Assembly: GCF_000308695.1 (NCBI RefSeq)
Contig: NZ_BAGG01000002.1
Span: 124,001-188,000, forward strand
Origin: Nocardia takedensis NBRC 100417
GTDB taxonomy: Bacteria; Actinomycetota; Actinomycetes; Mycobacteriales; Mycobacteriaceae
Reading direction: 5' to 3'
Length of the DNA: 64,000 nt
This document shows, piece by piece, positions 34,025-49,974 of the stretch; positions within the stretch are counted from its first letter, which is position 1, and each line of letters begins with the position of its first letter. The position numbers and the translations under genes were made by a program. The notes below the pieces were generated by a model. The model did no database searches. It was not told the origin of the DNA and saw nothing but the letters and a program-made list of their open reading frames with translations.

Positions 34025-34100
34025 GCGCCCGTAGCTCAACGGATAGAGCATCTGACTACGGATCAGAAGGTTAGGGGTTCGAATCCCTTCGGGCGCACCA
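34025..34100 (+). tRNA. tRNA-Arg (anticodon ACG), attachment site of the AICE
   Basis: A 73-nt tRNA plus encoded CCA. The acceptor GCGCCCG pairs with CGGGCGC, and the anticodon loop is CTACGGA. Positions 34061-34098 (anticodon-arm 3' side to the first C of CCA) are repeated at 47766-47803, so the 3' half of the present gene was supplied by the integrated element and restores a full tRNA. Confidence 0.97.
34061..34098 (+). repeat. Left attachment core (38-bp direct repeat, inside tRNA-Arg)
   Basis: It begins GATCAGAAGG and ends CGGGCGCAC and is identical to 47766-47803. It lies within the tRNA and rebuilds its 3' half. Confidence 0.95.
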
Positions 34101-34102
34101 CG

Positions 34103-34140
34103 AAGTGCCTCCCACCAGCAAGTCCCGGTGGGAGGCACTT
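34103..34140 (+). terminator. Element-encoded terminator after tRNA-Arg
   Basis: A 14-bp perfect stem (34103-34116 with 34127-34140) and a 10-nt loop start 3 bp after the CCA. It belongs to the element, because the host's own terminator now lies past the right repeat at 47809. It replaces the displaced terminator of the tRNA transcript and shields the int end. Confidence 0.8.
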
Positions 34141-34167
34141 TCGTATCCGAGCCAGCGGCCCCGGATT

Positions 34168-34188
34168 CCTTACTTTCCCCGTACAAAC
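34168..34188 (+). repeat. Putative integrase arm-type site, left
   Basis: A 21-bp stretch starting CCTTACTTTC and ending CAAAC matches 18 of 21 bases with 47633-47653 in the same orientation. It is 70 bp inside the left core. A partial third copy (GTTACTTTCCG) overlaps the int stop at 34193. Confidence 0.55.
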
Positions 34189-34194
34189 GAGCCG

Positions 34195-35346
34195 TTACTT
34201 TCCGTCCGCGTACCGGTCGAGGGTCCCCCGAACGTCCGGCCCCTGAGTCTGGCGCTGGAGGTAGTGGTCCTCGGTGGTCGAGAGCTTCGCATGGGACAGC
34301 TGGGCCTGAGCCTGCGCCGGACCGAGAGCATCGCGCACGACCGTGGCGACCGTCCGGCGGAAGCTGTACGGAGTCACCCAGCGCAACTCCTCGGGCAGCG
34401 CCGCGCGCAGCGAACGCCGCATGTTCGCCAGACTCACCCAGCCGCCATCCCGATTGCCGAACACCGGAGAGTCCGGCCCCGCAGCATCACCGAACAGCAC
34501 CGTGAGCGCCTCCACGGCCAGCCGAGGCAGAACCACGGTATGAGGTGGCGCGTCCCCCTTCCGCTTCTCCTGGCGATGCACAGCCACCTTCTCGGCCTTG
34601 CCGTGGTCGACCAGCGTCCCCGAGACCGTCATGGTCGGCGGATCGGACAGCAGATCGACATCCGACCACCGCAGCCCCAGAACCTCATTCGGTCGGCACC
34701 CGGTCGAACCGATCACGTCCACGAACTCACACAGCAACCGCCCTGGCTTCGGACCGCTGACGCCCGGACGATCCCGGTAGGCCCGAACCGCCGAACGAAC
34801 CGCGGTGAACTGCTCGGCCGTCAACGCCCGCGCCGGAACCTTCTTGCCCTTCTTGCGGGCGACCTCCCGGAGCGGATTGACCGGAAGCACCTCATGGCGC
34901 ACCGCCAGCGAGTACATCTGGAGCAGCATCGTTCGCAGCGAGCGAGCCTGCGACTTAGGCAACGTCGACAGATACCGATCGGCGCGACTGGTCGACAGTT
35001 CCCGCACCCTCAGCGAGCCGAGTTTCTCGGTGCCGTGCCGCTCCCATGTGTCCCGGTAGGCCCTGACCGACTGCCGGACCAACTCATCCTTGGTCGACAA
35101 CCAGAACTCGAAAAGCTCATCCAACGACGTCTTCTCGGTGATCACAGCCCCGGTGACAGGCGCGGTCCGCCGCTTCAGATGACGCAGCAGGTTCCGGCGC
35201 GCGTCCTCCTCGCTGGAGCCGCCACGTTCGACCTGCCGACGCTTGCCGTCCTCATCGCGGACGTACGCCGACGCCACGAACTTGCCGCCCGAGGGAGTGA
35301 CCGTGATCTTGCCCCACTCACCAGGGGCCATCCTCTGACGCGGCAT
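34195..35346 (-). CDS. int: Site-specific tyrosine recombinase (integrase)
   Basis: A 383-residue integrase that recombines attP with the tRNA-Arg site. An N-terminal AP2-like arm-binding domain (about 10-60) and SAM-like core-binding domain (about 70-165) precede the catalytic domain. Catalytic residues are R218 (STGCRPNEVLGL), R330 (PYSFRR, with Tyr at the usual box-II His), H352 (LSHAKLSTTEDHY) and nucleophile Y362. It overlaps xis by one base (TGATG) and ends 94 bp from the core site. Length and layout match AICE integrases. Confidence 0.95.
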   Translation of the reverse strand: MPRQRMAPGEWGKITVTPSGGKFVASAYVRDEDGKRRQVERGGSSEEDARRNLLRHLKRRTAPVTGAVITEKTSLDELFEFWLSTKDELVRQSVRAYRDTWERHGTEKLGSLRVRELSTSRADRYLSTLPKSQARSLRTMLLQMYSLAVRHEVLPVNPLREVARKKGKKVPARALTAEQFTAVRSAVRAYRDRPGVSGPKPGRLLCEFVDVIGSTGCRPNEVLGLRWSDVDLLSDPPTMTVSGTLVDHGKAEKVAVHRQEKRKGDAPPHTVVLPRLAVEALTVLFGDAAGPDSPVFGNRDGGWVSLANMRRSLRAALPEELRWVTPYSFRRTVATVVRDALGPAQAQAQLSHAKLSTTEDHYLQRQTQGPDVRGTLDRYADGK

Positions 35347-35519
35347 CAGGCAGCTTGGTCGAGTCCGGCGATGTAGTCGGTCACGGCCTGTTCGGTGACG
35401 AATCGGCGGCGTCCGATCTTCACCGAACGCAGCGCGCCGGACCCGATGAGTTCGTAGTACTTGCTGTGCCCGATCGGGATCAGCTTGCGGACCTCGGTCT
35501 CGTTGAGCAGTTTCGACAT
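35346..35519 (-). CDS. xis: Excisionase (MerR-like winged HTH)
   Basis: A 57-residue protein: MSKLLNETEVRKLIPIG, then KYYELIGSGALRSVKIGRRR and a short C-terminal helix. It is the short excisionase type with a MerR-like HTH and the KIGRRRFV wing typical of AICE and phage Xis. The start ATG at 35519 follows GGGGGC; the stop overlaps the int start. It should bend attachment DNA and drive excision with Int. Confidence 0.9.
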   Translation of the reverse strand: MSKLLNETEVRKLIPIGHSKYYELIGSGALRSVKIGRRRFVTEQAVTDYIAGLDQAA

Positions 35520-35532
35520 GATGTGCCCCCTT

Positions 35533-37218
35533 CTAGGCTGCCTGTGGGATGGCTGGAAGGTCGTGGGTGCCGGGTGGTCCGGCGGCGAGGAGGGCGCGGT
35601 CGTATTCGGCGCGCCAAGCGATGCGTTGAGCGATCGCGGACATGATCAGGTGGTCGCGGGGTGGCACGTTCTTGTCGCCGTTCTCGACCGGGGTCACGAT
35701 GACGTGGGAGCGGTCCGGTTTGACGATCCCGACCGCGCGGAGCAGTTGCCGGACGAACTCGGCGCGATCGGCTTTGTGGTCGGGCAGGGTCTTGTTGGAC
35801 CAGCGGCGCGAGACCAGCACCCGCCGACCGGGAAGCCCGAGGGTGTCGCGGCGGTGCGCTTTGGACTTGCAGCGACCCGCCACGGTCTTCGCGGTCGCGC
35901 CTTTGGGGGTGATGCCGTAGCGCAGCCACACCCCGCAGCGCGGGGAGCACGGGGTCCGGCACAACTCGTCGTGGAGCCGGTCGTAGTGGATCGCGGTGCG
36001 GGTGGAGTCGGTGTCGAGGACTTCGGACACCGATTTGGTGAGGTATTTGGTGACGTAGCCGATGGCCCGGTCGGCTTTGGGGCCGGGGATATAGCCCTTC
36101 ATGTGGCCGGGGTCCATGTGCTCGCCGAAGCGCACCACGTACGCGGGTTCGAGGTCGTCTACGGAGTCCATGACGTCGAGGGCCTGATCCCAGGTCGGCA
36201 GAAGTGCCCCGGAGTCGGGGTCAACGAATCCGCCCGCCGTGTGGTCCCAGACCGGCATCCGGTCGCCGCTGTAGACCTCTCGGTCGTGGTGGGGCCACCA
36301 CACCTGGTGGTAGGTCGCCGCCGTCACCAACCGAAGGATGTCGCGGCTGATGGCCGAGCGCAGCAACAGGTGAAGGTGTGGCGCGCCCCGGCGTTGGGGT
36401 TCGACGGTGGCGAAGTACTGGACGTCGTAGCCGACCACGCGGCGCAGGTTCTGGATCCAGCGGTCGACCAGCTTGGAGAAGTGCACGATGTCGCGGGCGG
36501 CGCGGGCGTAGTCGTAGGTGGAGGGGTCGCGGGGCGAACCGTCGCCACAGACCTTCCCCTCGGCGTCGGTCGCGCCGTCACGGTTCATCGGCCCGTAGGA
36601 GGGCATGGTCAGGGTGACCATCATCGAGGACCGGTACCCGCCGATCTCTCTGCCGACCGTGGTCTTCTCGACCTTCTTCCTGGGCAGGTCCGGGGCGTCC
36701 TGGCGTCGACGGGTGGAGCGCTGACGCCGGTCGGTGGGGGTGGCGTCGAAGGCGGGCAGCCGTCCCCGGAAGCCGGTCTCGCGCAACTCGGCGTCGAGAC
36801 TGGTGGCGATGTCGCGGATGGCCTCGGCCGATTCGATGTCCCCGATCTCGGTGGCTTCGCGGTACTGGACGTACAGGTCCGAGCGCGCCCGCAGCAGATC
36901 CTTCTGCGCGTCGCTGGCCGCATCGGGGGTGTTGACCGGTTCACGGTCGAGGTGCCAGCCCTCCCGGCACTGCGTCATCCGCAGATAGCGGGCCTTGGCT
37001 GCACACGACGGGCACACCGAGGCCACGGTGGATTTGCAGGGTGAGCCGACGTAGGAGACGGTCAGGGTCTTGGGGTCCTCAGTGCGCATCGGGACCGGGC
37101 GACGGCACACGGTGTGCTCGTCGGCGAGGTCTTGGGCGACGGACCGGAAGTCCGGCAGGGCACGACGCTGGGCCGCAGTCTGCCGGACCGGCACCGACGC
37201 ATCGTCGGTCGAGTTCAC
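35533..37218 (-). CDS. rep: Rolling-circle replication initiator (RepSA-like)
   Basis: A 561-residue HUH endonuclease that nicks the element's origin. The metal-binding HUH motif is H281-L-H283 in GAPHLHLLL; the catalytic Tyr region is GYVTKYLTK (Y388 and Y392 with K391). A zinc-like cluster near the N-terminus (SPCKSTVASVCPSCAAKARYL) is typical of RepSA proteins. The start is a GTG at 37218 with AGGAGG 5 nt upstream; the frame is open further but without family similarity. It is 13 bp upstream of xis and overlaps the PP-loop gene by 4 bp. Confidence 0.9.
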   Translation of the reverse strand: MNSTDDASVPVRQTAAQRRALPDFRSVAQDLADEHTVCRRPVPMRTEDPKTLTVSYVGSPCKSTVASVCPSCAAKARYLRMTQCREGWHLDREPVNTPDAASDAQKDLLRARSDLYVQYREATEIGDIESAEAIRDIATSLDAELRETGFRGRLPAFDATPTDRRQRSTRRRQDAPDLPRKKVEKTTVGREIGGYRSSMMVTLTMPSYGPMNRDGATDAEGKVCGDGSPRDPSTYDYARAARDIVHFSKLVDRWIQNLRRVVGYDVQYFATVEPQRRGAPHLHLLLRSAISRDILRLVTAATYHQVWWPHHDREVYSGDRMPVWDHTAGGFVDPDSGALLPTWDQALDVMDSVDDLEPAYVVRFGEHMDPGHMKGYIPGPKADRAIGYVTKYLTKSVSEVLDTDSTRTAIHYDRLHDELCRTPCSPRCGVWLRYGITPKGATAKTVAGRCKSKAHRRDTLGLPGRRVLVSRRWSNKTLPDHKADRAEFVRQLLRAVGIVKPDRSHVIVTPVENGDKNVPPRDHLIMSAIAQRIAWRAEYDRALLAAGPPGTHDLPAIPQAA

Positions 37219-38240
37219 GCGGCCTCCTGATGATCGGTGACGGCAGGCCCCGAAACGCAGCCGTACGGGGAGCAGCCCGGACCCTCGTCGTCTTCTTCTT
37301 CGGCGAGGTCGGCGGCATAGTCGAACAGGTCGAGTTGCCGGTCTTTCCATTCGGTGCGGGTGATCCGGTCGATGGGCGCGATGTCGAGCGGCAGGCAGGA
37401 GCGGTGCAGGAACGCCTGGCCGCGCAACGGTTCGGCGGAGGCCCCGCCCGAACGAATCGACCGGTCGAAGGCGACCGCGTCGGCCCATTCGGTGGGGTGG
37501 TTGTCGCGCAGGTCGCGCCAGTAGGGGTTGCGGTGGTGAGGGCAGCCGATGCACGCCGATTTCACGGTGTGGCCCCATCCGGTGCGGCGTAGGTAGCGTT
37601 CGCAGTCGGTGCGGGACATGCCGAGTTCGAGCAGTGGGAATCGTTTGGTCGTGTATTTGTTCTCGCGGCGGTCGTTGACCCGCTGGATCTCGTCGGTGGA
37701 GAACCCGATCCACTGTTCGGCGTAGCGGCCTTTGGGGACTCGCAGGTAGCGGGGTGCGGGCGCGCCGAGCAGCATCCGGACCGCGCGGTTGATGGGGGCG
37801 ATCTTGTACTCCGATGTGCACTGCCGCCGTCCGAGCCCTTCTCGCTCCCGGCGGGTGGCCAGGCGTTCACGGTGCCCGACGATCACGGTGTAGCCGTCGG
37901 GGTCGGTTTCGGTGATCTCCTCGCGAATGGTCGTGCCCTCGGGGGCCAGGGTGTAGTAGGGGATCGAGACGAACCGGTGATCCGGATCGAGGGAGTCTCT
38001 GCGCAGGTTGCCGTTACCGACCCGGTGCAGGGGGATACCGACCTGGCCGAACTCGGCCTCCAGACGCTCGACCTGGGAGTAGACGGCCGGGGGTTCCCAC
38101 CCGGTATCGGCGAAGATCGCCCCATCCAACCGACCGAAATCATCGAGTTCACCACGCACGGCCATCAACGCCAGGGTGGTCGATTGGACACCGGCCCCGA
38201 GCGAGAGCAACCGCAACATGGGAGTAACGGTGTCGGTCAT
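37215..38240 (-). CDS. PP-loop ATPase of the PAPS-reductase family
   Basis: A 341-residue protein. The N-terminal PP-loop SLGAGVQST (13-21) binds ATP. Conserved downstream elements are IFADTGWEPP, RRQCTSEYKIAPI and the cysteine motif SACIGCPHHRNPYW, arranged as in phage and mobile-element PAPS-reductase-like proteins and in DndC. Family members adenylate a substrate and often transfer sulfur; here the substrate is unknown. No dnd genes are present, so DNA phosphorothioation is unlikely as such. It is placed between transfer and replication genes with 4-bp overlaps on both sides, so it is part of the core operon, not loose cargo. Confidence 0.85.
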   Translation of the reverse strand: MTDTVTPMLRLLSLGAGVQSTTLALMAVRGELDDFGRLDGAIFADTGWEPPAVYSQVERLEAEFGQVGIPLHRVGNGNLRRDSLDPDHRFVSIPYYTLAPEGTTIREEITETDPDGYTVIVGHRERLATRREREGLGRRQCTSEYKIAPINRAVRMLLGAPAPRYLRVPKGRYAEQWIGFSTDEIQRVNDRRENKYTTKRFPLLELGMSRTDCERYLRRTGWGHTVKSACIGCPHHRNPYWRDLRDNHPTEWADAVAFDRSIRSGGASAEPLRGQAFLHRSCLPLDIAPIDRITRTEWKDRQLDLFDYAADLAEEEDDEGPGCSPYGCVSGPAVTDHQEAA

Positions 38241-38410
38241 CGTCGGTCCTCCTCGCTCGGAGCATCGAATAACGACATCTGACCTTCGGTCGGGGCGTAG
38301 AGCTTGGCCGGGACAGGCCCCGCCACCGCGCCGCGCCGCTTGCGAACACCGGCCGCAGCCTTGGCGACGATCGGGTTCGTTCGCGGGGCGGTAGGTTCCG
38401 GGGTACTCAT
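38237..38410 (-). CDS. Small basic protein of the AICE operon, 57 aa
   Basis: The sequence starts MSTPEPTAPRTNPIVAKAAA and has a basic centre (GVRKRRGAV), then LYAPTEGQMSLFDAPSEEDRR. The QMSLFD motif resembles the sliding-clamp-binding pentapeptide QL[SD]LF, which could recruit the replication clamp. Overlaps of 4 bp with both neighbours show translational coupling. No known family recognised. Confidence 0.65.
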   Translation of the reverse strand: MSTPEPTAPRTNPIVAKAAAGVRKRRGAVAGPVPAKLYAPTEGQMSLFDAPSEEDRR

Positions 38411-38745
38411 GCCGTCCACCTGTCGGAACCGGCGAGGTCCGTGCGGACCGGGGCGGTCGGGACAGTGGAGCGCCCGGACCGGGTCAGGGCATCGGAGATC
38501 ACGCCCCGCAGCACACCGACGAGGGCGGTCGCGTCCGCCAGTGTCATGTCCAGGTGGACCACGGCGGCGAATCCCTGTTCCGTGTGGACGGTCACCTGGA
38601 CCATGTCCGTGCCGTCGGGGCTGGTGTAGTGGCTGGCGAAGACTTCGCCGGTATCGCGGAGACGGCCCCGATCGGCCGAGACGGTGACACGTCCGAAGTC
38701 GGGCAGGTGACTCGGTCGCCAGGAGACGCGGACCGGTGTGTTCAT
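38407..38745 (-). CDS. Small AICE operon protein, 112 aa
   Basis: From the ATG at 38745 after GGAGGGTG. The C-terminal half (VHLDMTLADATALVGVLRGVI) resembles the C-termini of two other small proteins in the same operon (40796-41032 and 41894-42136), which share the pattern L-x-x-x-DA-x-x-L-[LV]-x-x-L. The N-terminal half is a predicted beta-rich region. Function unknown. Coupled on both sides by 4-bp overlaps. Confidence 0.7.
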   Translation of the reverse strand: MNTPVRVSWRPSHLPDFGRVTVSADRGRLRDTGEVFASHYTSPDGTDMVQVTVHTEQGFAAVVHLDMTLADATALVGVLRGVISDALTRSGRSTVPTAPVRTDLAGSDRWTA

Positions 38746-38942
38746 GCCGCCCACCCTCCGTCGTCGTCGGTGGTGTCGAGATCCCAGACCGGCAGGTGAC
38801 CGGTCTCCGCGACCAGGGCGACCGCGACCGCCAGCGGGTCGGCACCGCGCCGTTCGAGGTGTCCGCGACGACGGGAGGCGAGGTCGATCACGTTGTCGAC
38901 GTAGGCGGTATCGGCGGTTCGGGTGTTGTTGTGGCGCTTCAC
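38742..38942 (-). CDS. Small AICE operon protein, 66 aa
   Basis: From the GTG at 38942, with GGAGG 8 nt upstream. It begins VKRHNNTRTADTAYVDNVID, has a basic patch (SRRRGHLERRG), and ends with a Trp-containing acidic tail. No family recognised. Its start overlaps the previous gene's stop (TAGTG). Confidence 0.65.
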   Translation of the reverse strand: MKRHNNTRTADTAYVDNVIDLASRRRGHLERRGADPLAVAVALVAETGHLPVWDLDTTDDDGGWAA

Positions 38943-39184
38943 TATTCGGTTCCTCCGGTCGGATCGTTGTCGTGTTCGTCGCGTTCGATGGCGCGGCAGC
39001 AGTCGCACAGGACGCGGTCGCCGTCGTAGAACCAGCCGACCTGTGCGGAGCGGTCGTTGAGGTAGCTCACGGCCTGGGGGATGGAGTCGAAGCAGATGCC
39101 CTCGGCCTCGTGTTCGCTGTAGATGTCGCCGCAGCAGTCGCAGTAGACGACCACGTGAATCTCGGCCACGAATCCCCGCTTCAC
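38942..39184 (-). CDS. Small Cys-rich (zinc-ribbon-like) AICE protein, 80 aa
   Basis: Two CDCC motifs (about residues 15-18 and 60-63; VVYCDCCGD and VLCDCCRAIE) are separated by about 42 residues, the pattern of a structural zinc ribbon. The middle contains a helix (SIPQAVSYLNDR) and an aromatic strand. It may bind DNA or a protein partner in transfer. It overlaps tra by 4 bp. Confidence 0.7.
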   Translation of the reverse strand: MKRGFVAEIHVVVYCDCCGDIYSEHEAEGICFDSIPQAVSYLNDRSAQVGWFYDGDRVLCDCCRAIERDEHDNDPTGGTE

Positions 39185-40548
39185 GCCGCCACCGAGCCCT
39201 GTCCGTCACCGGGGATGCCGTCGGCGGCGAACTCGTCCGCGACGCCAAGCGGTTCGGATTCCTCGACGGGGGCGGGAGTGGCTTCGGGGACGGGCGCGGC
39301 GAGTACCGGGGTGGGGGTGTAGGTGTCGACGATGGCGTCGGCGGTGTCGTCGGACACCCAGAACGCCCGGACGCGGACGAACTCGTTCGAGCCGTCGTGC
39401 CCGACGTAACCGACACCTGGTGTGTGAGCGTCGATCTTGTCGCAGCGGGCACCGCGCGCCCGAGCGCCTTGGCCGTGAACCATGGCGACCTGTGAGGGTT
39501 CGTCCAACCGGAGCCCGATGCGGACCGGGAACAACTGCCGGACCGGCATGGTCTCCTTGGAGGGGTCCTGCAACGCCGCGATCACCGACACTGCTGCCGC
39601 CCGGCCCTGCGACAACAGGACACCCATGACGCGTTTGAACTCGGCCTGTTCCTCACGCGAGGCATACGCCGACAGCGCCGCCGCCTCATCAATCACGATC
39701 ACGATCAGCGGCGCGTCCGGCGTCGGGACGTGCTTGCGGACACCGGTCGACCGCATCAGCGCCAACCGTTCCCGCAGGGTCTTCTCCGCCTCGGCCAGCA
39801 ACGTCAGGATGTCGGGGACATCGGTGGCGAACTCGGCGAAGAGCCGGTCTTCCCCGCGCCCGAACTCCGCGCCGCCCTTCGGATCGGCCATCAGCACCCG
39901 GACGAGTCCGGCGAGGATGGCGGGTCCGAGTCCGGCCAGCACCGACCACAGGACCGAGCCTTTTCCGGCTCCGGTGGCCCCGGCGAGCAGGATGTGTCCG
40001 TAGAGGACCCGCAGCCGCCACAGGTCGTGGTCTTCGGTCACCCCGACCGGTATCGCCTCGAGATCCACCGGGACGGAGGAGTCGACCGGTGGGAGCGGTA
40101 CAGGGGCCGCGAGGGTGTCGAAGGTCCGCAGGTCCAGGCGGACCGCGCCGGGGTGCGGGAACGACACCGACACCTCCGGCACCGCGAGGGCCTTGGAGAG
40201 CTTGTCGCAGACGGTCTCGCTGGCCCAGTCCTCCGACGAATGGCCCGCCAGCATCAGCAGATCAACGCGCAGGCCGTGGGCGGTGTACACCCAGTCCTCC
40301 ACCGGCGGGAACCCGACATCGAGCGACCCGAGTTTCAGCGTCTTGAACAGGTGGGCGCGGCGCTGGGGATCGGCCAGCACCGCCACCGCCAACCGCAGAT
40401 CCAGCGGAGCGAGCTCGACCGCTTCGGCGACCTCGGCGGACTGCGCCGAGTGCGAGACGCCCTCGGAGGCGATCGTGCGCAGCCACCACAGGCCCGAGGC
40501 CCCCGTGGCCAGGCCGCTGGCCAGCATGACGGTTTCGGCGATACTCAT
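39181..40548 (-). CDS. tra: FtsK/SpoIIIE-type conjugative DNA translocase (TraSA-like)
   Basis: A 455-residue ATPase that moves double-stranded DNA between mycelia, the only protein needed for transfer in this class. An N-terminal hydrophobic segment is short (about 5-24). The motor has Walker A GATGAGKGS (190-198), MADPKGGAEF, Walker B VIVIDEAAALS and a late GARGARCDKI loop. No separate gamma (DNA-reading) domain is obvious, but the C-terminal 80 residues could hold it. The ATG at 40548 is used; the frame upstream is not similar. Overlapping its neighbours by 4 bp. Confidence 0.9.
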   Translation of the reverse strand: MSIAETVMLASGLATGASGLWWLRTIASEGVSHSAQSAEVAEAVELAPLDLRLAVAVLADPQRRAHLFKTLKLGSLDVGFPPVEDWVYTAHGLRVDLLMLAGHSSEDWASETVCDKLSKALAVPEVSVSFPHPGAVRLDLRTFDTLAAPVPLPPVDSSVPVDLEAIPVGVTEDHDLWRLRVLYGHILLAGATGAGKGSVLWSVLAGLGPAILAGLVRVLMADPKGGAEFGRGEDRLFAEFATDVPDILTLLAEAEKTLRERLALMRSTGVRKHVPTPDAPLIVIVIDEAAALSAYASREEQAEFKRVMGVLLSQGRAAAVSVIAALQDPSKETMPVRQLFPVRIGLRLDEPSQVAMVHGQGARARGARCDKIDAHTPGVGYVGHDGSNEFVRVRAFWVSDDTADAIVDTYTPTPVLAAPVPEATPAPVEESEPLGVADEFAADGIPGDGQGSVAA

Positions 40549-40796
40549 CGTGCGCTCCCATCGAATTCGGTTGCCCGGCAGAACATCACGCACCCCGACA
40601 CCACCGGCGCGACAGACGCGGCGGTCGGGACGGGGGCGGTCGGGGCGGTGGTGTCCACCGGGGCGGGGGTCGGGTTTTCGGTCGCGGTCGCGGCGGGGCG
40701 GACCGGTTCGCGGGCGGGCGGGGTCGCCAGGACCCCGGCACCGGCGATCACGGTCACCGACGCGCACACCGCCGTCACCAGAGCGGGAGTACGCAT
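40545..40796 (-). CDS. Small exported or membrane protein, 83 aa
   Basis: An N-terminal hydrophobic segment (ALVTAVCASVTVIAGAGVLA) is followed by a Pro/Thr/Ala-rich linker and a short tail with two Cys (SGCVMFCRA). It resembles the small Spd-type proteins of AICEs that act in plasmid spread. A GTG at 40799 would give a 4-bp overlap and the ATG at 40796 a one-base overlap with the preceding gene. Function not established. Confidence 0.65.
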   Translation of the reverse strand: MRTPALVTAVCASVTVIAGAGVLATPPAREPVRPAATATENPTPAPVDTTAPTAPVPTAASVAPVVSGCVMFCRATEFDGSAR

Positions 40797-41032
40797 CACA
40801 CCACCGCCTTCACAGCGGCGCGCAGGTCGTGTTCGGCCACCGCATCGGCCAACCCGGCGAGCAGGGTCCGGGCATCGGTGATCGTGAGCGAGAGCGCCGA
40901 GCCGAGCCCGCCGAGTTCGGCGACGACTCGCGGCGGCGAAGCCGGGTCCTCGGCCAGGGCGTGGGGACGGTAGACGACCTGCCCGATGTGGATGTCGGGC
41001 ATCGCGGTCAGCATCGAGGGAAGCGAGTACAT
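40796..41032 (-). CDS. Small AICE operon protein, 78 aa
   Basis: From the ATG at 41032. The second half (ELGGLGSALSLTITDARTLL then LADAVAEHD) is clearly similar to the 80-residue product at 41894-42136 and more distantly to that at 38407-38745. Predicted fold: a beta-hairpin and one long helix. No known family recognised. Confidence 0.7.
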   Translation of the reverse strand: MYSLPSMLTAMPDIHIGQVVYRPHALAEDPASPPRVVAELGGLGSALSLTITDARTLLAGLADAVAEHDLRAAVKAVV

Positions 41033-41033
41033 G

Positions 41034-41897
41034 TCAGTGACTCCCAGCAGGGATGGCGATCGGCAACATCGGTTGCGTCGGTCGCGAGGAACGAACAGGA
41101 ACCACCGGCACCGGGACCGCAGCGGCCACCCGCAACGGCGCGGGTTCAGGCACAGGAGTGGATTCGGGAGCCGAGACCGGCTCAGCGACAGCAGATTTCG
41201 GGGTAGCGGACTTGGCGTACTTCGCCGCCGTCGCGGCCGACACCCCGAGTTCCCGAGCGATCTCGGCGAACGATTTCCCGGCGGCGCGCAGTTCGACAGC
41301 GCGAGCCACCACCGCCGGATCACGCCGAGACGACGACGGCTTACGGGCAGGCTTCGCACGACGCACCAGCACCGGAGCGGGAACGGATTCGACAGGAGGA
41401 ACCGGGACGGGATCGGTCGAGACAGGCTCACCCGCAACCGACACCGGCACCACCACCGACTCCCCGACCGAGCGTTGCGAGGCCCGGAACAGCAGCGCCA
41501 ACCCGTGCGTATCCGCCAGCAGCGATATCGGAGCCACCGCCGCGACGATCGCAGCCGCCCACCCCGGCAGCGGGTGACCCGAGGCGACCGCGTGCAGGGA
41601 ATTGCCCGCCACGCTCACCGCCGCGCCGATCACCAACACCGCCAGGAAGAACCGACGCTCCGACCGGCCCGGCGAGACCAGGACACCGAACGTCGCCAAC
41701 AGGATCGTTCCGTCAACGATCAACGGGAACAGCCACGCATCACGCGCCGGGACCCGCGCCAACACGGCCAGATCCGCCAGGGTACTGAAGGACAGCCGGA
41801 ACGCCGCCACCCCGACCGCCACGATGATGACAGCGGCGGACCAGCGCGCCCAACGCATACCCGCCCCCGACAACCGCTGATCCGCCGCCATGATCAC
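41034..41897 (-). CDS. DUF2637 (SpdB-like) membrane protein with C-terminal HTH
   Basis: A 287-residue protein. Four membrane helices (about 15-135) include the DUF2637 motif RVPARDAWLFPLIVDGTILLATF; a Pro/Val-rich linker follows; then a Hin-like HTH (RDPAVVARAVELRAAGKSFAEIARELGVSAATAAKYA) at about 190-230; then a Pro-rich tail. DUF2637 proteins are usual in AICE transfer regions and are compared with the Spd spread proteins that help DNA pass along septate hyphae. The HTH suggests it can touch DNA. Start ATG at 41897 gives a 4-bp overlap; the ATG at 41891 is also possible. Confidence 0.8.
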   Translation of the reverse strand: MIMAADQRLSGAGMRWARWSAAVIIVAVGVAAFRLSFSTLADLAVLARVPARDAWLFPLIVDGTILLATFGVLVSPGRSERRFFLAVLVIGAAVSVAGNSLHAVASGHPLPGWAAAIVAAVAPISLLADTHGLALLFRASQRSVGESVVVPVSVAGEPVSTDPVPVPPVESVPAPVLVRRAKPARKPSSSRRDPAVVARAVELRAAGKSFAEIARELGVSAATAAKYAKSATPKSAVAEPVSAPESTPVPEPAPLRVAAAVPVPVVPVRSSRPTQPMLPIAIPAGSH

Positions 41898-42136
41898 GCC
41901 GCCCTATCCGACGACGACACAGCCTCAGCGGCGTCGTGCTCGGCCAGGATCGCGGGCAACTGTTCCAGCAGCGAACGAGCGTCGGCGACATCGAGAAGCA
42001 TGTACGCCTTCGCGTCGGTCAACTCCACGACCACCCCCGCCGGCAGCGAGGTGTACTCACCCTCACGCGCGGGCCAGTACTTCGCGGTGATCCCGTCACG
42101 CCCGGACACGCTGGTGCTGAAGTAGGACATGATCAC
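41894..42136 (-). CDS. Small AICE operon protein, 80 aa
   Basis: It begins MIMSYFSTSVSGRDGITAKY. The C-terminal LTDAKAYMLLDVADARSLLE then LPAILAEHD repeats the pattern of two other small proteins of the operon. It overlaps pra and the DUF2637 gene by 4 bp each. No known family recognised. Confidence 0.7.
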   Translation of the reverse strand: MIMSYFSTSVSGRDGITAKYWPAREGEYTSLPAGVVVELTDAKAYMLLDVADARSLLEQLPAILAEHDAAEAVSSSDRAA

Positions 42137-42567
42137 GCCGCCTTACCGGCCGGAGCCGACTTCGCACCCGAGTTGTCGCCCTGGATACCGGTCGCACGGA
42201 CCACGAACCCGATCGACTTGAACTCACCGTTACCCGTCACACGCGGCTTGACCTGCAAGCCTTCCAGGACGATCGGCGTCATCCCCGGCGAGACCGGAGC
42301 CGCCGAGGGAACCGGCTGCACGTCGGCCACGAACGTCAGATCGATCGCGGTGTTCTTCGACCCCATCCCGGTCGGATCGACCACCGTCGCCTTCCACAGC
42401 CGCTTACCGGTGCCGTTGCCCTCAGCGTCCAGGTCCAACCGCTGACGCTTCGGCGCGTTGCGATCCGAGGAGAACTCCGTCGCGGGCGCGATCTCGCCCA
42501 TCAGCAACAAACCCATCGGAAACGCCTCAGCAAAGTCCGGGCGGAACCACACATCCTTCAAAGCCAT
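42133..42567 (-). CDS. pra: Pra-like activator of replication, integration and excision
   Basis: A 144-residue protein resembling the 'plasmid replication, integration and excision activator' family of Streptomyces AICEs, named after Pra of pSAM2, which switches on the rep-xis-int operon. Matching landmarks are FAEAFPMGLLLMGEIAPATEF near the start, a KRLWKATVVDP strand, VQPVPSAAPVSPGMTPIVLEGL, and a VRATGI end. It is the first gene of the long minus-strand operon, so it would raise expression of its own downstream genes. The ATG at 42567 has AAGGGG 6 nt upstream. Confidence 0.75.
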   Translation of the reverse strand: MALKDVWFRPDFAEAFPMGLLLMGEIAPATEFSSDRNAPKRQRLDLDAEGNGTGKRLWKATVVDPTGMGSKNTAIDLTFVADVQPVPSAAPVSPGMTPIVLEGLQVKPRVTGNGEFKSIGFVVRATGIQGDNSGAKSAPAGKAA

Positions 42568-42589
42568 CTGTAACCCCTTGTCTAGGTGG

Positions 42590-42702
42590 GCATTACGCGG
42601 CCCGATGGACCTCGCAACTTCCGACACATCAAGGTTCTCGCGACACATAGGGACGAAATAACCCAAGAATTAGGACACTTAGGGACACTTTTGGGCTAAG
42701 AT
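42590..42702. promoter_or_regulatory. Divergent promoter/operator region between pra and the XRE gene
   Basis: For the XRE gene, TAAGAT at 42697-42702 is a good -10 box only 6 bp before its ATG, which suggests a leaderless mRNA. Upstream are two GGACACTT repeats 10 bp apart (42673 and 42683). For pra, TTGCGA (complement of 42612-42617) and TAATGC (complement of 42590-42595) are 16 bp apart. Two CGACACAT repeats (42622 and 42641) lie next to that -35 box. The four GACAC elements probably bind the XRE protein. Confidence 0.5.
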
Positions 42703-42708
42703 GGAAGC

Positions 42709-43440
42709 ATGACGAACGAACGACTTCGGGGCGCAATGGCCGCCGCGAACCTCACGAAACATGCTCTAGCGGAAAGGCTCGAGGTCAGCACGAAGACCGT
42801 CGAACGGTGGATCACCCAGGACCGATGCCCGCACCCCGGTTTACGGTTGAAAGTCGCCGAAGTTTTGGACCGCGACGAGACCTACCTTTGGCCCGAGCTG
42901 CTGGCAGGCAGCAGATCAGCGACCGCGTCGCTGTCAGAACTGGTCCAAATATGGCCGACTCGCCCCGAAGTGCCGCATGAGGTTTGGCGTTCCCTTATGA
43001 AGCAGGCCAACGACCACATCGACGTCCTGGTCTACGCAGGGGGCTTCTTGGTTGAGTCGCTGGACTTCGTAAATATCGTCCGCGCCAAAGCGCAGGTCGG
43101 CGTCCAAGTTCGAGTCCTGCTCGGTGAGAGTGATGCACCAGAGGTCATAGCCCGCGGGCGCGAGGAAGGCTTGCCGTCGCTACCGCAGCGCTGCGAATCG
43201 ACGCTGGAATATCTCCGGGAGACGATGGACCTGCCGATGGTGGACATACGGACCCATCGCACAACCCTCTACAACAGCATCTACCGCTTCGGCGACTCAA
43301 TGTTGGTGAACACCCACAGCTACGGCGCGTATGCGGCGAGGTCGCCGGTTCAGCACCTCCAGAAGGTGCCCGGTGGGCAACTGTTCTCCTACTACATGGA
43401 CTCGTTCGAGGCTGTCTGGAAGACCGGGCGACCCGCGTAG
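42709..43440 (+). CDS. XRE-family regulator with PLD-like C-terminal domain
   Basis: A 243-residue protein. The HTH is in residues 1-60 (AMAAANLTKHALAERLEVSTKTVERWI). The rest (about 80-243) reads as a single phospholipase-D-like half-domain (HIDVLVYAGGFLVES, then VRVLLGESDAP, then DSMLVNTHSYGAYAARSPVQHL), with the HKD-type catalytic residues not intact. XRE proteins of this type are frequent neighbours of Nudix genes in AICEs and are assumed to be the element's main repressor. Divergent from pra across repeat-containing DNA. Probably leaderless. Confidence 0.8.
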   Translation: MTNERLRGAMAAANLTKHALAERLEVSTKTVERWITQDRCPHPGLRLKVAEVLDRDETYLWPELLAGSRSATASLSELVQIWPTRPEVPHEVWRSLMKQANDHIDVLVYAGGFLVESLDFVNIVRAKAQVGVQVRVLLGESDAPEVIARGREEGLPSLPQRCESTLEYLRETMDLPMVDIRTHRTTLYNSIYRFGDSMLVNTHSYGAYAARSPVQHLQKVPGGQLFSYYMDSFEAVWKTGRPA

Positions 43441-43449
43441 CCTAGCCAC

Positions 43450-43932
43450 ATGGGACGCCGAATCGACTACCACCAAGACCCCGACGCGCCAGCGGCGAAC
43501 AGTGTCCGACCCAGCGCTGCCGCTTTCGTACTGGAAGACGGCAAAGTTCTGTTGATATGCAGGTCTGACAACGGAAACTGGTCGATGCCGGGAGGCGCGC
43601 ACGACCCTGGCGAATCGCTCAGTCACACGGCAGTCCGTGAGACGTTGGAAGAGACTGGGGTGAACATCCACGTCACCGGGATAGTTGGCATCTTCACGGA
43701 CCCGACACACGTCATCCACTACACGAGCAACGACGAGGTTCGACAAGAGTTCACCGTGGTCTATCGCGGCGAGCCAATCGGCGGACAACCAACGACCAGC
43801 AGTGAGAGCACACGTGTTGAATGGGTGCCGATCGAACGAATCCCTGAGTTGACGATGGACCGGAGCCAACGCAAGCGAATTGATTGGGCTGTGAACGAGA
43901 GCGAGCCCTACATCGATCCCGACGCCCGCTGA
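43450..43932 (+). CDS. Nudix hydrolase, Pif-like
   Basis: A 160-residue Nudix protein; the box G49-x5-E55-x7-R63-E-x2-E67-E68-x-G is complete, so hydrolysis of a nucleoside diphosphate derivative is possible. In pSAM2 the Nudix protein Pif gives immunity against redundant transfer between cells that already carry the element; the gene's position in this AICE suggests the same. It is 9 bp after the XRE gene and overlaps the convergent HD gene by 25 bp. Confidence 0.85.
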   Translation: MGRRIDYHQDPDAPAANSVRPSAAAFVLEDGKVLLICRSDNGNWSMPGGAHDPGESLSHTAVRETLEETGVNIHVTGIVGIFTDPTHVIHYTSNDEVRQEFTVVYRGEPIGGQPTTSSESTRVEWVPIERIPELTMDRSQRKRIDWAVNESEPYIDPDAR

Positions 43933-44435
43933 GCCGCCGCACGTAACCGTGGCTCCGCCCGTGTGATCGCCGTGTGAACCACGCTGCCCGGCTCATACCG
44001 CCTCAGAATTTCCGCCAGCCGCTCATCCACCGTGAATTGCTCGCCGTTCGGCCCCGTTGACAGGTCAGACCACCACAGGAAGTCGTCAGCCTGTTCGATC
44101 CCAGGAACACCCGAGAGTCGGAACTCATCGAAAATTCCGACATCGAGACCTCGTACGCCAGCCTCTACCTCAGCCGCCGTGTGAAACGCGACCATATGGC
44201 AGACGACCGGTGAGTAGCCGAGCGAGCGCAGCAAGCGGGCCCCGTCGATGGGGTGAAATCCCAGCACGGAATGTCCGTAGCCGACATCGTGCAGGTAGGC
44301 AGCGGTCACCGCGTCCACCCGAACCTCGTCGTGCAGCAGCTCTGCGATCGTCTCCATCCGTTGCCCCACAGCCAGCGAGTGAGCCCGGCGCGATTCCGTC
44401 AGGGGAGCCAGCAGGTCGGCCATAGCATCATCCAT
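43908..44435 (-). CDS. HD-domain phosphohydrolase
   Basis: A 175-residue HD protein. H19 (RRAHSLAVG), H49-D50 (AAYLHDVGYGH), and later HTAAEVEAGVRGLD give the metal ligands of a small HD hydrolase. Substrates of this type are nucleotides or cyclic nucleotides, not defined here. The ATG at 44435 with GAAGGTG upstream is preferred to the GTG at 44444. HD genes often accompany the XRE-Nudix pair in AICEs. Its promoter region carries overlapping TGATG dyads. Confidence 0.8.
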   Translation of the reverse strand: MDDAMADLLAPLTESRRAHSLAVGQRMETIAELLHDEVRVDAVTAAYLHDVGYGHSVLGFHPIDGARLLRSLGYSPVVCHMVAFHTAAEVEAGVRGLDVGIFDEFRLSGVPGIEQADDFLWWSDLSTGPNGEQFTVDERLAEILRRYEPGSVVHTAITRAEPRLRAAAQRASGSM

Positions 44436-44492
44436 GCAGGTCACACCTTCGATAGCGGCAACACTATTGTTTACACGCTACACAAGCTTCTA

Positions 44493-44517
44493 TGATGAAA
44501 TCATCACGCAAGTGATG
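44493..44517. promoter_or_regulatory. Overlapping dyads upstream of the HD gene
   Basis: TGATGA-AA-TCATCA (44493-44506) and CATCAC-GCAA-GTGATG (44502-44517) share a half-site, giving three alternating TGATG elements. They are 58-82 bp upstream of the HD start codon. Regulator unknown. Confidence 0.4.
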
Positions 44518-44564
44518 CCGAGAAGGTGAGAGCGACGGGCCAACGCCGCCCTCACCGGTGGGAA

Positions 44565-44681
44565 TTACCTAGCCCGCACTCGGCGGACCGCAACGAGCGC
44601 CCCGGCGATCACGGCAGCAACCGTCAAGACGATGCCGTAATCGACCGGGGCCTTGCTCTTTCTCCGGCGATGTTTCGCCAT
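44565..44681 (-). CDS. 38-aa single-pass membrane protein
   Basis: A very basic N-terminus (MAKHRRRKSKAPVDYG), one membrane helix (IVLTVAAVIAGALVAV) and a basic C-terminus (RRVRAR). AGGAGG lies about 9 nt upstream of the ATG at 44681, which supports translation. No family recognised. A small tail-anchored or Spd-type helper protein is a possible role. Confidence 0.6.
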   Translation of the reverse strand: MAKHRRRKSKAPVDYGIVLTVAAVIAGALVAVRRVRAR

Positions 44682-45397
44682 CCCCACCACCTCCTCCCTG
44701 GGCGCGATGTCTGGACCAACGTCCATCGCCCCTCGGCAGGAGGTTCACACAGCCTACGTCACAGCCACGCCGAGACATCAAGCGCCGCAGAACGTTCGCC
44801 ACACCTAGCGTGAGTGATTGCCGAATTTCGCCATACAGGATCAAGAGCGCCCCGGCGGCGCTCCGCGCCGCCGCCGCGCACGCCACGCAACGGCACCCTC
44901 CTCGCAGGCTCGTCGGGCACCGGCGCGGCGGTGCGTCGGCGGACGGAATCGCCGCCAGGGCGCGAACTGGTCCCTGTCGAGCCGATATCGTCGGCGCCCT
45001 ACCCCGATCGACTCCTATACGGGCTGCCGCACGAGCTTCGCTCGCTTGCCTTCTGGCCTTCCTGCCGCACTGGACAGCCGTGGCCCCTTCATCGCTGTCG
45101 TAGCGGAGGATCGGCCGTCAAGGACTGGGCAGACGTGGTCGTGTTCGTCACCGGGGACGGGACAGGTTGGTCACCAGCGGAATTCGGGGCCGTCGATTCG
45201 CGCTCAGGGATGGTGACGGTCCGGGTTCCTGTCCGGTCGGGGTGGCCTGACAGTGATCGAGGGCTATCACGACCGCGGCGGGAGTCAACAGCGCCTACGG
45301 CGTCCCTACGGGATTGCTGCGCACCTGTTGACACCCACCACGATCGTGATCTTTCAGCCCCCGATCAGGCCACCCCGACCGGAGAGGAACCCTCGAC
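44682..45397. other. Largely noncoding AICE segment
   Basis: No convincing gene. A 195-codon plus-strand frame (44814-45401) ends in a 4-bp overlap with the next small gene, but its first part is Arg/Pro/Ala shadow sequence; a real gene could occupy only its last third. A 9-bp GC hairpin (CGGCGGCGC, TCC, GCGCCGCCG) lies at 44853-44873. AICEs keep their transfer locus (clt) in noncoding DNA, and this segment or the next one is a candidate; I could not find the tandem 8-bp motifs that would prove it. Confidence 0.4.
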
Positions 45398-45553
45398 ATG
45401 ACCGTCACCACCGCCCCCCAGTGCATCAACTGCCCGAACCCCGCCATCGCAGTCCTGCCCTACCTCGCCCCCGGCGACGAACACGACCACGTCTGCCCCG
45501 AATGCCTGGCCGCCTACCACGAGGCCATCCGCGCCCAGACCGACAGCGAGTGA
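45398..45553 (+). CDS. 51-aa zinc-ribbon protein
   Basis: It starts MTVTTAPQCINCPNPAIAVL and continues to HVCPECLAAYHEAIR. CINC and CPEC, about 25 residues apart, form a compact zinc ribbon. GGAGAGG lies 9 nt upstream of the ATG at 45398, and third-position GC is high, so it is probably real. Small zinc-ribbon proteins of this kind are common in actinobacterial plasmids; function unknown. Confidence 0.65.
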   Translation: MTVTTAPQCINCPNPAIAVLPYLAPGDEHDHVCPECLAAYHEAIRAQTDSE

Positions 45554-45890
45554 CCGTAGGGGGCTTCGGCCCCCGCCCTCGACCGTCTCAACCCTGATCG
45601 AGGCGCTCATTGGAGGAGCGTGGTCGAAGCGTCCTTTCGGCCGCTTGGCCCTGGACTGTGGTGGCCTGCATTATGATCCCGCGCCCCTCACACCTCAAGG
45701 GCGCGACAAGTCGCGTCGGCACGCCGATGGCCCAAGGGCCACCCTTGACCTGTAAGCCTCTGCGCGTGACGGGCAGGCCCTATGGGGCAGGCGGGTAGCC
45801 AGCCCCCGTCATGCGCAACCCACCACCGACCAGGGCCGTTCCGCCGCGCGGTCGCGACAGGCTCTCGCCAATTAGACGGTGACGCACAGG
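45554..45890. other. Noncoding AICE segment
   Basis: No supported gene. The DNA contains two GGGCAGG motifs (near 45771 and 45786) and short inverted repeats, but no clear terminator for the zinc-ribbon gene. It marks the change from GC-rich backbone to the AT-richer cargo. Confidence 0.4.
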
Positions 45891-46424
45891 TCAGTCGTCA
45901 ATTGCAACCCCGTCCCGAAACTGGTCGAAGGTAACGTACATGCGGTCGGTTCCTTCCATTGTCTGGAAGCCATATCCCTCATACATCGACCGCAGTTTAG
46001 GGTTGTTATCCATCGGATCGATGACCAGGTGTAGACCGCCGATGAGTAGCGCTGCTTCATTGGCCATCAAAAAAGCTTCTGCGAAAAGCTCAATCCCGAG
46101 ATCTCTGCCGCGAAGCGACCGATCTAGTGCAATCTTTCCAATCAAGACCCCATAGGCTTCTTTGCTCCAAAACTTCGGAGGTTTCAATAGCTTGAGTAGC
46201 CCGCGATCGCTGTCGGAATCTTCGCGGAGGATGGTTGGCAACAATGTGTAGTATCCCACCACCATATCGCCAGCATCTGCCCAGACGTGAGTGGCCGAGA
46301 GGCCCAAATTCTGATCTTTAAGGGCGTGATTATCGAGCCATTGATCTAGCTTAGGAACACCGCAATTGAGAAAGTTAGTGTGATGCTCAGCGGTCAGTCG
46401 GACCGCCGTGTATGGCGCGTTCAC
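45891..46424 (-). CDS. GNAT-family acetyltransferase toxin, TacT-like
   Basis: A 177-residue GNAT protein. It follows the TacT pattern: an N-terminal FLNCGVPKLDQWLDNHALKDQNLG, VVGYYTLLPT strand, the acetyl-CoA loop RSLRGRDLGIELF (normally RxxGxG/A), and a C-terminal YEGYGFQTM. Such toxins acetylate aminoacyl-tRNA and stop translation. Base composition is clearly more AT-rich than the AICE backbone, so it was acquired from another source. A small upstream gene overlaps by 4 bp and is the candidate antitoxin. Confidence 0.82.
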   Translation of the reverse strand: MNAPYTAVRLTAEHHTNFLNCGVPKLDQWLDNHALKDQNLGLSATHVWADAGDMVVGYYTLLPTILREDSDSDRGLLKLLKPPKFWSKEAYGVLIGKIALDRSLRGRDLGIELFAEAFLMANEAALLIGGLHLVIDPMDNNPKLRSMYEGYGFQTMEGTDRMYVTFDQFRDGVAIDD

Positions 46425-46576
46425 CGCTGACGGATAGCCGCCCGGTCGATAGCAGCACGTAGCTTGCCGCTGGGTGCGGCCTTTTTCTCGGTCATTCGCA
46501 CGATCTGTCCGCGCTTGACGCTCGTCACATCGACGCTCTTGCGTGATGTTCTCTGCGCTGCCTGATCTTTGCTCAC
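46421..46576 (-). CDS. Small basic protein, candidate antitoxin partner of the GNAT
   Basis: A 51-residue protein from the GTG at 46576 (VSKDQAAQRTSRKSVDVTSV), with an AGAAG upstream; longer forms starting up to 46648 are open. It is strongly basic and does not show the RHH fold of the usual DUF1778/TacA antitoxins. It overlaps the GNAT gene by 4 bp (ATGA), which is the arrangement of toxin-antitoxin pairs. A different antitoxin family or a DNA-binding accessory is possible. Confidence 0.5.
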   Translation of the reverse strand: MSKDQAAQRTSRKSVDVTSVKRGQIVRMTEKKAAPSGKLRAAIDRAAIRQR

Positions 46577-46670
46577 GGCTTCTACGATAGCGGTTTGAGG
46601 GACCGATAGCGCTGTAAGCTGGCAGTAAGGACCATCCTCGCTGCTCAAGAGCGTGTCGAAACGCCGGACG

Positions 46671-47510
46671 CTAGTCCGCTGTCATTGCTTCTATCGGCGG
46701 CGAGATGTCCCAGAGGGTGTGACGTCCGTCTGGCTGGATCAAGGGCACCGCCATCCTGGGGCCCCGGCTACGCGGCAGCGCGAAATCCGCTGGGGCATCT
46801 CTAAGGCATGCGGCGCGGAGGTCGTCTAGCAATCTGCGTGCCGTAGCATTCATTGCGGTCAAGAGTGCCTGGATTACAACGATTTGTCCATTGCACAGCA
46901 CGAAGCCATCTACAATGCCGTTATTCAGAAGATAATCGGATGATCCTGCATCTATTAATGGTTGGCCTGGGTCGCCAATTGCTACTCGAATTTCCGTCAA
47001 AGAATGTGATATTGCGGGCTTCGGGATCCACCGTACTAATTCCGGGGACTCTATTCCCGCTCCGGATATCGGTAGAATGTCTTGCGTGGGAATCATGAAG
47101 CTCACCAGATGGGTCCATCCCGGCACGAATGTCTCAGGTTTCTTCCAGGTGTCAATACGGCGATTGTTTGGATCGGCGCGTTTTACCCATTTGGCGTTCT
47201 CGTGATCGGTCGAGGACAGATGATAGATGTATGTTCCACTCTCGTGAAATGAAAACTTCGCCAGTCCTTTCCAGGTTCTTATGGAAGCATATACATCATA
47301 TTTGTCTTTATTAGCCCAAACTCTGAATATGCTGGAGCACTCTCCGGGGCGGCCCACGGCGAACCTAGATGCGGTACGTTTGCCGACCGGCCGGAGAGTC
47401 ACCATGGGCTCGCGGCCGCGCGGCGGAAGATGATAAAGGTCGGCGCAGCGGGTATCGGGATCAAGCGCTGCGACGAAACCGCCCATTGCTGGTTCGGGTC
47501 GAGGACTCAT
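46671..47510 (-). CDS. Orphan AICE cargo protein, 279 aa
   Basis: Not recognised. From the ATG at 47510 (MSPRPEPAMGGFVAALDPDT) it reads as a mixed alpha/beta protein: an aromatic-rich central region (FRVWANKDKYDVYASIRTWKGLAKFSFH), GTYIYHLSSTDHENAKWVK, a WTHLVSFMIPT strand, and a late helix (QALLTAMNATARRLLDDLRAA). No membrane segment or signal peptide. Composition is AT-rich relative to the backbone. It is the last gene before the right end, the usual cargo position, and may serve defence or host adaptation; there is no motif to support either. Confidence 0.6.
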   Translation of the reverse strand: MSPRPEPAMGGFVAALDPDTRCADLYHLPPRGREPMVTLRPVGKRTASRFAVGRPGECSSIFRVWANKDKYDVYASIRTWKGLAKFSFHESGTYIYHLSSTDHENAKWVKRADPNNRRIDTWKKPETFVPGWTHLVSFMIPTQDILPISGAGIESPELVRWIPKPAISHSLTEIRVAIGDPGQPLIDAGSSDYLLNNGIVDGFVLCNGQIVVIQALLTAMNATARRLLDDLRAACLRDAPADFALPRSRGPRMAVPLIQPDGRHTLWDISPPIEAMTAD

Positions 47511-47632
47511 GCTGAGGGATCGTAGATCGCATCGGTGTGACTCTGCCCGCTCGTCCGAAGCGAGAACCTGTGTCGGCCCGTCCAGGCTGGCTGGATGAAT
47601 CGCCGGACGAGCAGAGGCATTGATTGCTGCAC

Positions 47633-47653
47633 CCTTACTTTGCCCGCATAAAC
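47633..47653 (+). repeat. Putative integrase arm-type site, right
   Basis: A 21-bp stretch starting CCTTACTTTG and ending TAAAC matches the left copy at 34168-34188 at 18 of 21 bases, same orientation. It is 113 bp inside the right core. The 255 bp from 47511 to 47765 hold no other feature. Confidence 0.55.
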
Positions 47654-49970: not shown

Positions 49971-49974
49971 CCGA

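Follow-up and report, generated by a model that had tools for sequence, protein, structure and literature searches.

The closest described relatives of the gene reported here belong to sulfur-based modification of DNA, in the multi-protein Dnd and Ssp systems (the latter, SspABCD, carrying out DNA phosphorothioation), and to the assimilatory reductases of 3'-phosphoadenosine-5'-phosphosulfate (PAPS) or adenosine-5'-phosphosulfate (APS), known as CysH. 'PAPS reductase' genes carried by phages and plasmids are usually taken as sulfur-assimilation genes, and the PHROG database files them under auxiliary metabolism. One family of this name, PHROG 424, is found in Mycobacterium abscessus prophages, in Thermus P23-77 and on Agrobacterium Ti plasmids. 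The similarity of the M. abscessus prophage members to DndC has been remarked on earlier (PMC8092301), and the Thermus phage members were said to 'deserve further investigation' (PMC11437467); in these two accounts the family has a name but has not been characterised.

Here we describe a member of this family in a 64,000-nucleotide stretch of Nocardia takedensis NBRC 100417 (assembly GCF_000308695.1, contig NZ_BAGG01000002.1, positions 124,001 to 188,000), which is referred to as the window. The gene (37215-38240, minus strand) lies in an actinomycete integrative and conjugative element (AICE), coupled to the replication gene rep, and exactly this gene is missing from a sister element in the same genome. 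We propose, with a probability of roughly 0.4, that its product is an orphan, accessory (moron-type) SspD-like PP-loop sulfur transferase, which modifies the DNA of the element against restriction and is possibly recruited by the replication clamp.

The 341-residue protein and its family

The open reading frame (ORF) starts with ATG, is free of internal stops and encodes 341 residues. Almost the whole protein (residues 6-339) matched phrog_424 (E 9.3e-46), which PHROG places in the category 'moron, auxiliary metabolic gene and host takeover', and SspD was the sole match in a PADLOC scan (1.6e-11). The Pfam family PAPS_reduct scored under its cut-off (14.1 bits, with 22.5 required), and the NCBIfam scan gave no family up to E 1, TIGR03183 (DndC) not being matched. 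Relatives were detected by tblastn in 174 plasmid records (108 from Agrobacterium, Ti plasmids included) and in 44 phage records, all of them at less than 60% identity.

The AlphaFold2 model of the protein has a mean predicted local distance difference test score (pLDDT) of 88 and a confident core with the PP-loop/PAPS-reductase fold. The model was comparable with yeast PAPS reductase (Z 12.5, root-mean-square deviation 3.9, 188 aligned), with the [4Fe-4S] sulfur transferase TtuA (Z 11.6, deviation 3.9, 168 aligned) and with the tRNA thiolase NcsA (Z 10.9), the assimilatory PAPS/APS reductases ranging from Z 10.5 to 12.5. A Foldseek search against the PDB gave three matches at E <=0.001, with low TM-scores. 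Among solved chains, PDB 21fy chain C, 'PptA', alone gave a convincing match in sequence (E 2e-5), which extended up to and past the CxxC motif; a literature search on PptA found neither its function nor the meaning of its name.

The canonical PP-loop reads SGGxDS; in this protein it is a variant, SLGAGVQS (residues 13-20; 38181-38204, minus strand). Of 69 homologues, at least 90% share each residue of the variant, which therefore characterises the family and is no sign of decay. Among the same homologues, C141 within RRQCTxEYKxxP (37818-37820) and both cysteines of C230xxC233 (37542-37553) are invariant, C213 is nearly invariant, and in the C-terminal pair C323/C328 (CSPYGC, 37257-37274) it is C328 that is invariant; all of these lie on the minus strand. 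By analogy with DndC, whose 4Fe-4S centre is held by three cysteines according to PMC10853773, C141, C230 and C233 probably hold an Fe-S site.

When an alignment of the 69 homologues was compared by hhalign with SspD (a single sequence, L246), the probability was 98.3 (E 2.5e-14, 214 columns), and the PP-loop, DTG, RxCTxxxKxxP and CxxC were all aligned. The probability was 2.3 with DndC (three sequences), and 2.9 and 6.0, for two family alignments, with APS reductase (five sequences ending in ECGLH). As a yardstick, SspD L246 itself reached 94.9 with DndC and 20.5 with APS reductase. These profile comparisons indicate SspD, and not DndC or assimilatory CysH, as the nearest known relative. Membership of DndC was rejected on the missing NCBIfam match and the hhalign probability of 2.3. 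A sequence-only reading of the locus had recognised a PP-loop sulfur-transfer-type enzyme with a CxxC motif, which is confirmed by the family variant of the loop, by C230-x-x-C233 and by the phrog_424 match. It had also called the protein PAPS-reductase/DndC-like; the PAPS-reductase fold is borne out, whereas the place of DndC as nearest relative goes to SspD.

A single-ORF insert in a start/stop overlap

Upstream of the gene is a 57-residue ORF (38237-38410, minus strand) without any matching Pfam family, which has homologous ORFs in sister AICEs and the clamp-motif-like sequence GQMSLFD near its end. The two ORFs share ATGA, the stop of the first and the start of the second. At the other junction, the stop of the gene and the start of rep (37218) share GTGA, again a 4-base overlap, and AGGAGG stands immediately before this GTGA. 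The downstream gene rep (35533-37218, minus strand) encodes a RepSA replication initiator (PF20199, E 1.2e-98). Translational coupling to rep and to small transfer genes had been proposed from the sequence; the overlaps on both sides agree with the coupling, but for the small upstream genes the label of transfer gene is putative, the 57-residue ORF having no Pfam family.

Five RepSA matches are present in the genome, on five contigs (C174, C233, C235, C256 and C265), and at least three of these elements are closely related. The sister AICE L149 aligns with the window at 89.3% identity over 2683 columns upstream of the ORF and at 88.8% over 1219 columns downstream of it. At the position of the ORF the alignment coordinates of L149 are continuous (9058, 9056), and exactly this ORF is absent, with the 57-residue ORF overlapping rep directly. 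L151 has the same empty arrangement. The gene is a single-ORF insert, slotted into the start/stop overlap between the 57-residue ORF and rep, and the genome offers a natural pair of elements with and without it.

Relatives of the protein (E 0.001) were found in 16 of 150 genomes of the genus, four of which had weak partial matches only, and in 21 of 249 genomes in an order-level survey, where some matches were weak. RepSA was found in 79 of 148 genus genomes. By coordinates, the gene adjoins RepSA in 3 of the 162 matches in total (fragments counted), namely in the window, G072 and G069. Thirty-six RepSA loci were inspected; the two with the gene were copies of the G072 and G069 loci, and it was absent from the remaining 34, including the four from its own genome. 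Because of the sister element without the gene and the counts of 3/162 and 0/34, the gene does not belong to the constant replication or transfer core, and a core AICE function was rejected. The view that it is 'not loose cargo' but built into the core operon has to be given up: a survey of AICEs at this position had been suggested along with that view and, as far as can be judged from sequence, most related AICEs are without the gene. For AICEs in general, a gene that is translationally coupled to rep need not have a core function, and a whole ORF can enter or leave a start/stop overlap.

In a tree of the family the three AICE copies group together with moderate support (SH-aLRT 84), nested among phage and prophage-like copies. 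This points to a single entry into AICEs from a phage-like source and subsequent loss or spread, the tree being compatible with gain or loss. The gene is accessory and probably phage-derived. The ratio of non-synonymous to synonymous substitution rates was 0.149 against an 80%-identical copy (L032) and 0.225 against another (L024), therefore the gene is under purifying selection.

Neighbourhood, tail motif and possible function

The neighbourhood of relatives was compared over 95 loci (87 distinct family proteins, duplicates kept). Proximity was counted on 72 deduplicated loci, the window not among them, for genes of C5 or N4/N6 methyltransferases (MTases), VUT, DpdA, Mom-like proteins and ArdC. 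A counted gene was present within 2 kb in 35/72 loci (46 genes in 266 kb), at 2-4 kb in 7/72 (9 genes in 235 kb) and at 4-6 kb in 11/72 (12 genes in 213 kb); as the queries had been chosen among proteins encoded close by, the count is biased, and the far bins are a distance control, not an unbiased null. The label of near or not near changes 19 times on the tree, by a raw count without a shuffled baseline, from which it follows that the association with modification genes arose repeatedly and not in one lineage.

A C5 MTase cluster occupies the +1 position in 38/95 loci, with a 4-base overlap in 22 of them, and a DnaB-N cluster the +2 position in 41/95. These arrangements are mostly those of one Streptomyces element type, and one representative of each cluster was confirmed by Pfam (PF00145 for the C5 MTase). 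Replication genes, RepSA and DnaB-N, are also recurrent partners. In Saccharothrix/Kutzneria elements the order is N4/N6 MTase, C5 MTase, family gene, VUT and DpdA (PF23859, 1.8e-85); ArdC (PF08401, PF18818) adjoins the family gene on a Ti plasmid; a Mom-family neighbour was found at L216 (PF25680, 2e-11), with XF1762-family neighbours also present; and viral contigs have Dam-like and C5 MTases near the gene. Most of the 122 viral neighbours scanned (131 were called) match no informative family, and the commonest Pfam families among them have two to three members each (N6_N4_Mtase 3, WhiB 3). Nucleic-acid modification or anti-restriction, named among the possible functions by the sequence-only reading, is supported as the leading one by the affinity with SspD and by the DNA-protection neighbourhood of relatives, and we would give even odds to a role of this kind directed at DNA.

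Near the C-terminus is QLDLF (residues 302-306; 37323-37337, minus strand), in a poorly predicted stretch. Beta-clamp-binding peptides have the consensus QL[SD]LF, and many members of the family have Q-x-[DN]-[LMIV]-F directly ahead of the C-terminal cysteines, which read GCSPYGC in many actinobacterial-type members and ECEGMCGV in other viral contigs. The loose form Qx[DNSTH][LMIV][FLW] occurs in 44/69 members, where shuffled versions of this region would give 0.7, and the strict form in 11/69, where they would give 0.02, the patterns having been chosen after the sequences were viewed. Among 1742 proteins called in the window and in 80 genome loci, after removal of the recognised members of the family, a widened strict form (A and G allowed) had five occurrences: one in the window protein, two in small ORFs of AICEs, one in an MTase that is coupled to a member of the family and one in a DUF317 protein. 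In the window protein residues 308-322 and 329-341 have a pLDDT below 50, and the mean is 56 for the block with the motif; in L200 the tail with motif and cysteines (259-275) is below 50 and the core is confident. Such a tail fits a short linear motif like the beta-clamp-binding peptide, although for actual tethering to the clamp the odds, judged from sequence, are somewhat less than even. The idea that coupled MTases supply the motif instead in Streptomyces was rejected; only one coupled MTase (L094) has the strict form. A literature search for a clamp link, or for a combined account of mobile genetic elements, DndC and ArdC, gave nothing bearing on the mechanism of the family among the matches listed, by their titles and the beginnings of their abstracts.

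Similar motifs were seen in other proteins of such elements. Small ORFs upstream of rep (46-61 residues as called) have Q[LM][SAD]LF near their end in the window (38237-38410, minus strand) and in L106, L110, L112, L117, L119, L145, L146, L149 and L151, an end that looks like a canonical beta-clamp-binding one, and could possibly encode a clamp-recruiting microprotein of AICE replication. A crude regular expression found a clamp-like small ORF in 16/36 RepSA loci, but missed true positives (L145, L146, L149), so no rate was drawn from it. In a few elements a beta-clamp-like DNA polymerase processivity protein may adjoin the family gene: the product of L028 9210-9956 matched phrog_947 (4.5e-4), although its stronger match was a PHROG named RusA-like, and one viral neighbour within two genes matched PF00712 (3.3e-27).

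From the family, the fold, the conserved residues, the one-gene insertion, the coupling, the family neighbourhood and the motif enrichment we infer a substrate, a sulfur chemistry, a binding to the clamp and an anti-restriction effect, which could be combined as follows. A host cysteine desulfurase would load sulfur onto the enzyme, using C141/C230/C233 and the mobile C-terminal cysteine pair. A sulfur donor is plausibly present in the host, where five IscS-like desulfurase matches were found, none of them over the strict cut-off. The enzyme would then activate a group on the element DNA with ATP and insert sulfur, as a backbone phosphorothioate or a thio-base, and with this mark the element would be shielded from restriction by the host while it replicates or just after its transfer. 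The conserved QLDLF-type motif of the tail may hold the enzyme at the replication clamp; element DNA would then be modified as it is newly synthesised, which would make modification possible without the SspB and SspC partners of the Ssp system. That sulfur is inserted into nucleic acid at all is, in our estimate, a tentative proposal whose chances fall a little short of one in two.

Several observations weigh against this proposal, in addition to the choice of patterns and queries already mentioned. The PP-loop is without the canonical Asp, and the ranking of SspD over DndC and APS reductase comes from thin comparison sets (1, 3 and 5 sequences) and is indicative. The motif is absent from many Streptomyces members, and the tail could be a purely catalytic swinging tail. 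There is no counted gene within 2 kb in 37/72 loci, and such elements often carry modification genes in any case (11/72 loci at 4-6 kb). In the window AICE no MTase, DpdA, Mom or ArdC was recognised beside the gene, the link being one by family, and the operon contains no SspA, SspB or SspC partner, the neighbours being RepSA and small ORFs. We regard as unlikely the wider form of the proposal, in which the whole family, on AICEs, phages, marine-type viral contigs and Ti plasmids, would consist of single-protein DNA sulfur modifiers tethered to the replisome. Each would combine an SspD-like core with a mobile cysteine pair and a tail that binds the beta clamp, would mark element DNA during copying in place of the multi-protein Dnd and Ssp systems, and would serve as a shield against restriction, often alongside MTases.

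Other functions can be envisaged for an SspD-like protein on a mobile element. It could be defence cargo, which excludes competing phages and elements alone or with parts borrowed from the host or from other elements; SspD, the sole match of PADLOC, is a defence component, and the gene is optional and borne by mobile elements like defence morons. However, no nuclease, nickase or sensor partner was recognised adjoining the gene in the window, and in relatives the neighbours that could be recognised are for the most part genes of modification/antirestriction and of replication; we consider this explanation improbable. Still less probable is an inhibitor or decoy without catalysis, acting on host restriction that depends on phosphorothioation. 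Homology could allow it to occupy host Ssp complexes, and ArdC is a neighbour on the Ti plasmid, but the invariant cysteines and conserved PP-loop across very diverse members suggest catalysis, and the window genome has no DndC match at E 0.001 and no other SspD match. In the same genome a DndD match is restricted to a short N-terminal stretch and under cut-off, and a search for DUF4007 (SspB) gave no match, with the controls equally silent. A tailoring enzyme of 7-deazaguanine DNA modification, applying PP-loop chemistry to a base inserted by DpdA, is a similarly slim prospect: VUT and DpdA or DpdA-like genes are near the family gene at L045, L064, L093, L172 and L174 (<=2 kb) and at L171 (2-4 kb), but few of the 72 loci have them within 2 kb (5 DpdA and 6 VUT matches), and in the window element neither was recognised next to the gene.

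The fold is also common to the tRNA thiolases (NcsA and TtuA, at the Z-scores given above), and thiolation of tRNA or another sulfur modification of RNA could aid the element. We hold this to be quite improbable, as no extra RNA-binding domain was recognised in the family scans of the protein, the neighbours are DNA-modification and replication genes, and DpdA, beside the gene in some loci, is DNA-acting by its Pfam name. Auxiliary sulfur assimilation, with a PAPS/APS reductase feeding cysteine synthesis, would agree with the fold and the flexible cysteine-bearing tail, with the presence of genes for glutaredoxin and cysteine dioxygenase close to the copy of phage phiT46-1, and with a PHROG category that covers auxiliary metabolic genes. 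Such a role would nevertheless be redundant, because the host has its own APS reductase above the curated cut-off; moreover, where the five APS reductases have a CC pair and an ECGLH end, this protein has RRQCT and GCSPYGC, and both the Pfam score and the hhalign probabilities for these reductases were low. This explanation has equally poor prospects.

The element and its place among known systems

The element spans 34061-47803 (13.7 kb) and is flanked by identical 38-bp direct repeats of tRNA-Arg, one (34061-34098) in the 3' part of the tRNA gene (34025-34100) and the other (47766-47803) at the opposite end. A tyrosine integrase (34195-35346; PF00589, 2.4e-8), an excisionase-like HTH_17 protein (35346-35519; 3.4e-5, 24.5 bits, under the 27-bit cut-off) and an FtsK/SpoIIIE-type (TraB-like) DNA translocase (39181-40548; PF01580, 6.1e-14) are encoded on the minus strand. 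The integrase at a tRNA attachment site, RepSA and the FtsK/SpoIIIE-type Tra protein identify it, by gene content, as an AICE. Its cargo includes a NUDIX hydrolase and an HD-domain protein (43450-44444); in pSAM2, the NUDIX protein Pif is described as blocking redundant exchange (PMC3218068). An HTH regulator (42709-43440) faces the transfer operon and has a weak PLD-like C-terminal region (PLDc_2, 0.0021, under cut-off), and about 2 kb beyond the right end of the AICE is a pair of Vsr endonuclease and C5 cytosine MTase genes (49967-51638; PF03852, PF00145).

Genes of this family have been filed under auxiliary metabolism, and the evidence points instead to a DNA-modification/anti-restriction family with a replication-clamp-type motif. 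If this is true, a widespread viral and plasmid gene family would be reannotated, and it would provide a simple sulfur-based enzyme of DNA protection.

Assimilatory CysH has the fold in common with the 341-residue protein, which is, however, without the CC pair or the ECGLH end. With DndC, the PP-loop and the RxCTxxxKIxP segment align weakly, and the three 4Fe-4S cysteines can be set beside the invariant C141, C230 and C233, but no DndA, DndB, DndD or DndE was recognised beside the gene. PptA is a relative, but a remote one. SspD is closer, with the PP-loop region, DTG, RxCTxxxKxxP and CxxC all aligning and two cysteines near the C-terminus of L246 as well, although its PP-loop reads GGKDS where this family has GAGVQS. 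Unlike the Ssp system, the gene has no SspA, SspB or SspC partners in its operon; its family has a QLDLF-type tail motif and is found on phages and conjugative elements. Compared with the other PHROG 424 copies, the one in the window sits in a RepSA-type AICE and is coupled to rep. To what had been said of this family, the present analysis adds its affinity with SspD, the motif in the tail, the repeated occurrence of modification genes nearby and the pair of AICEs with and without the gene.

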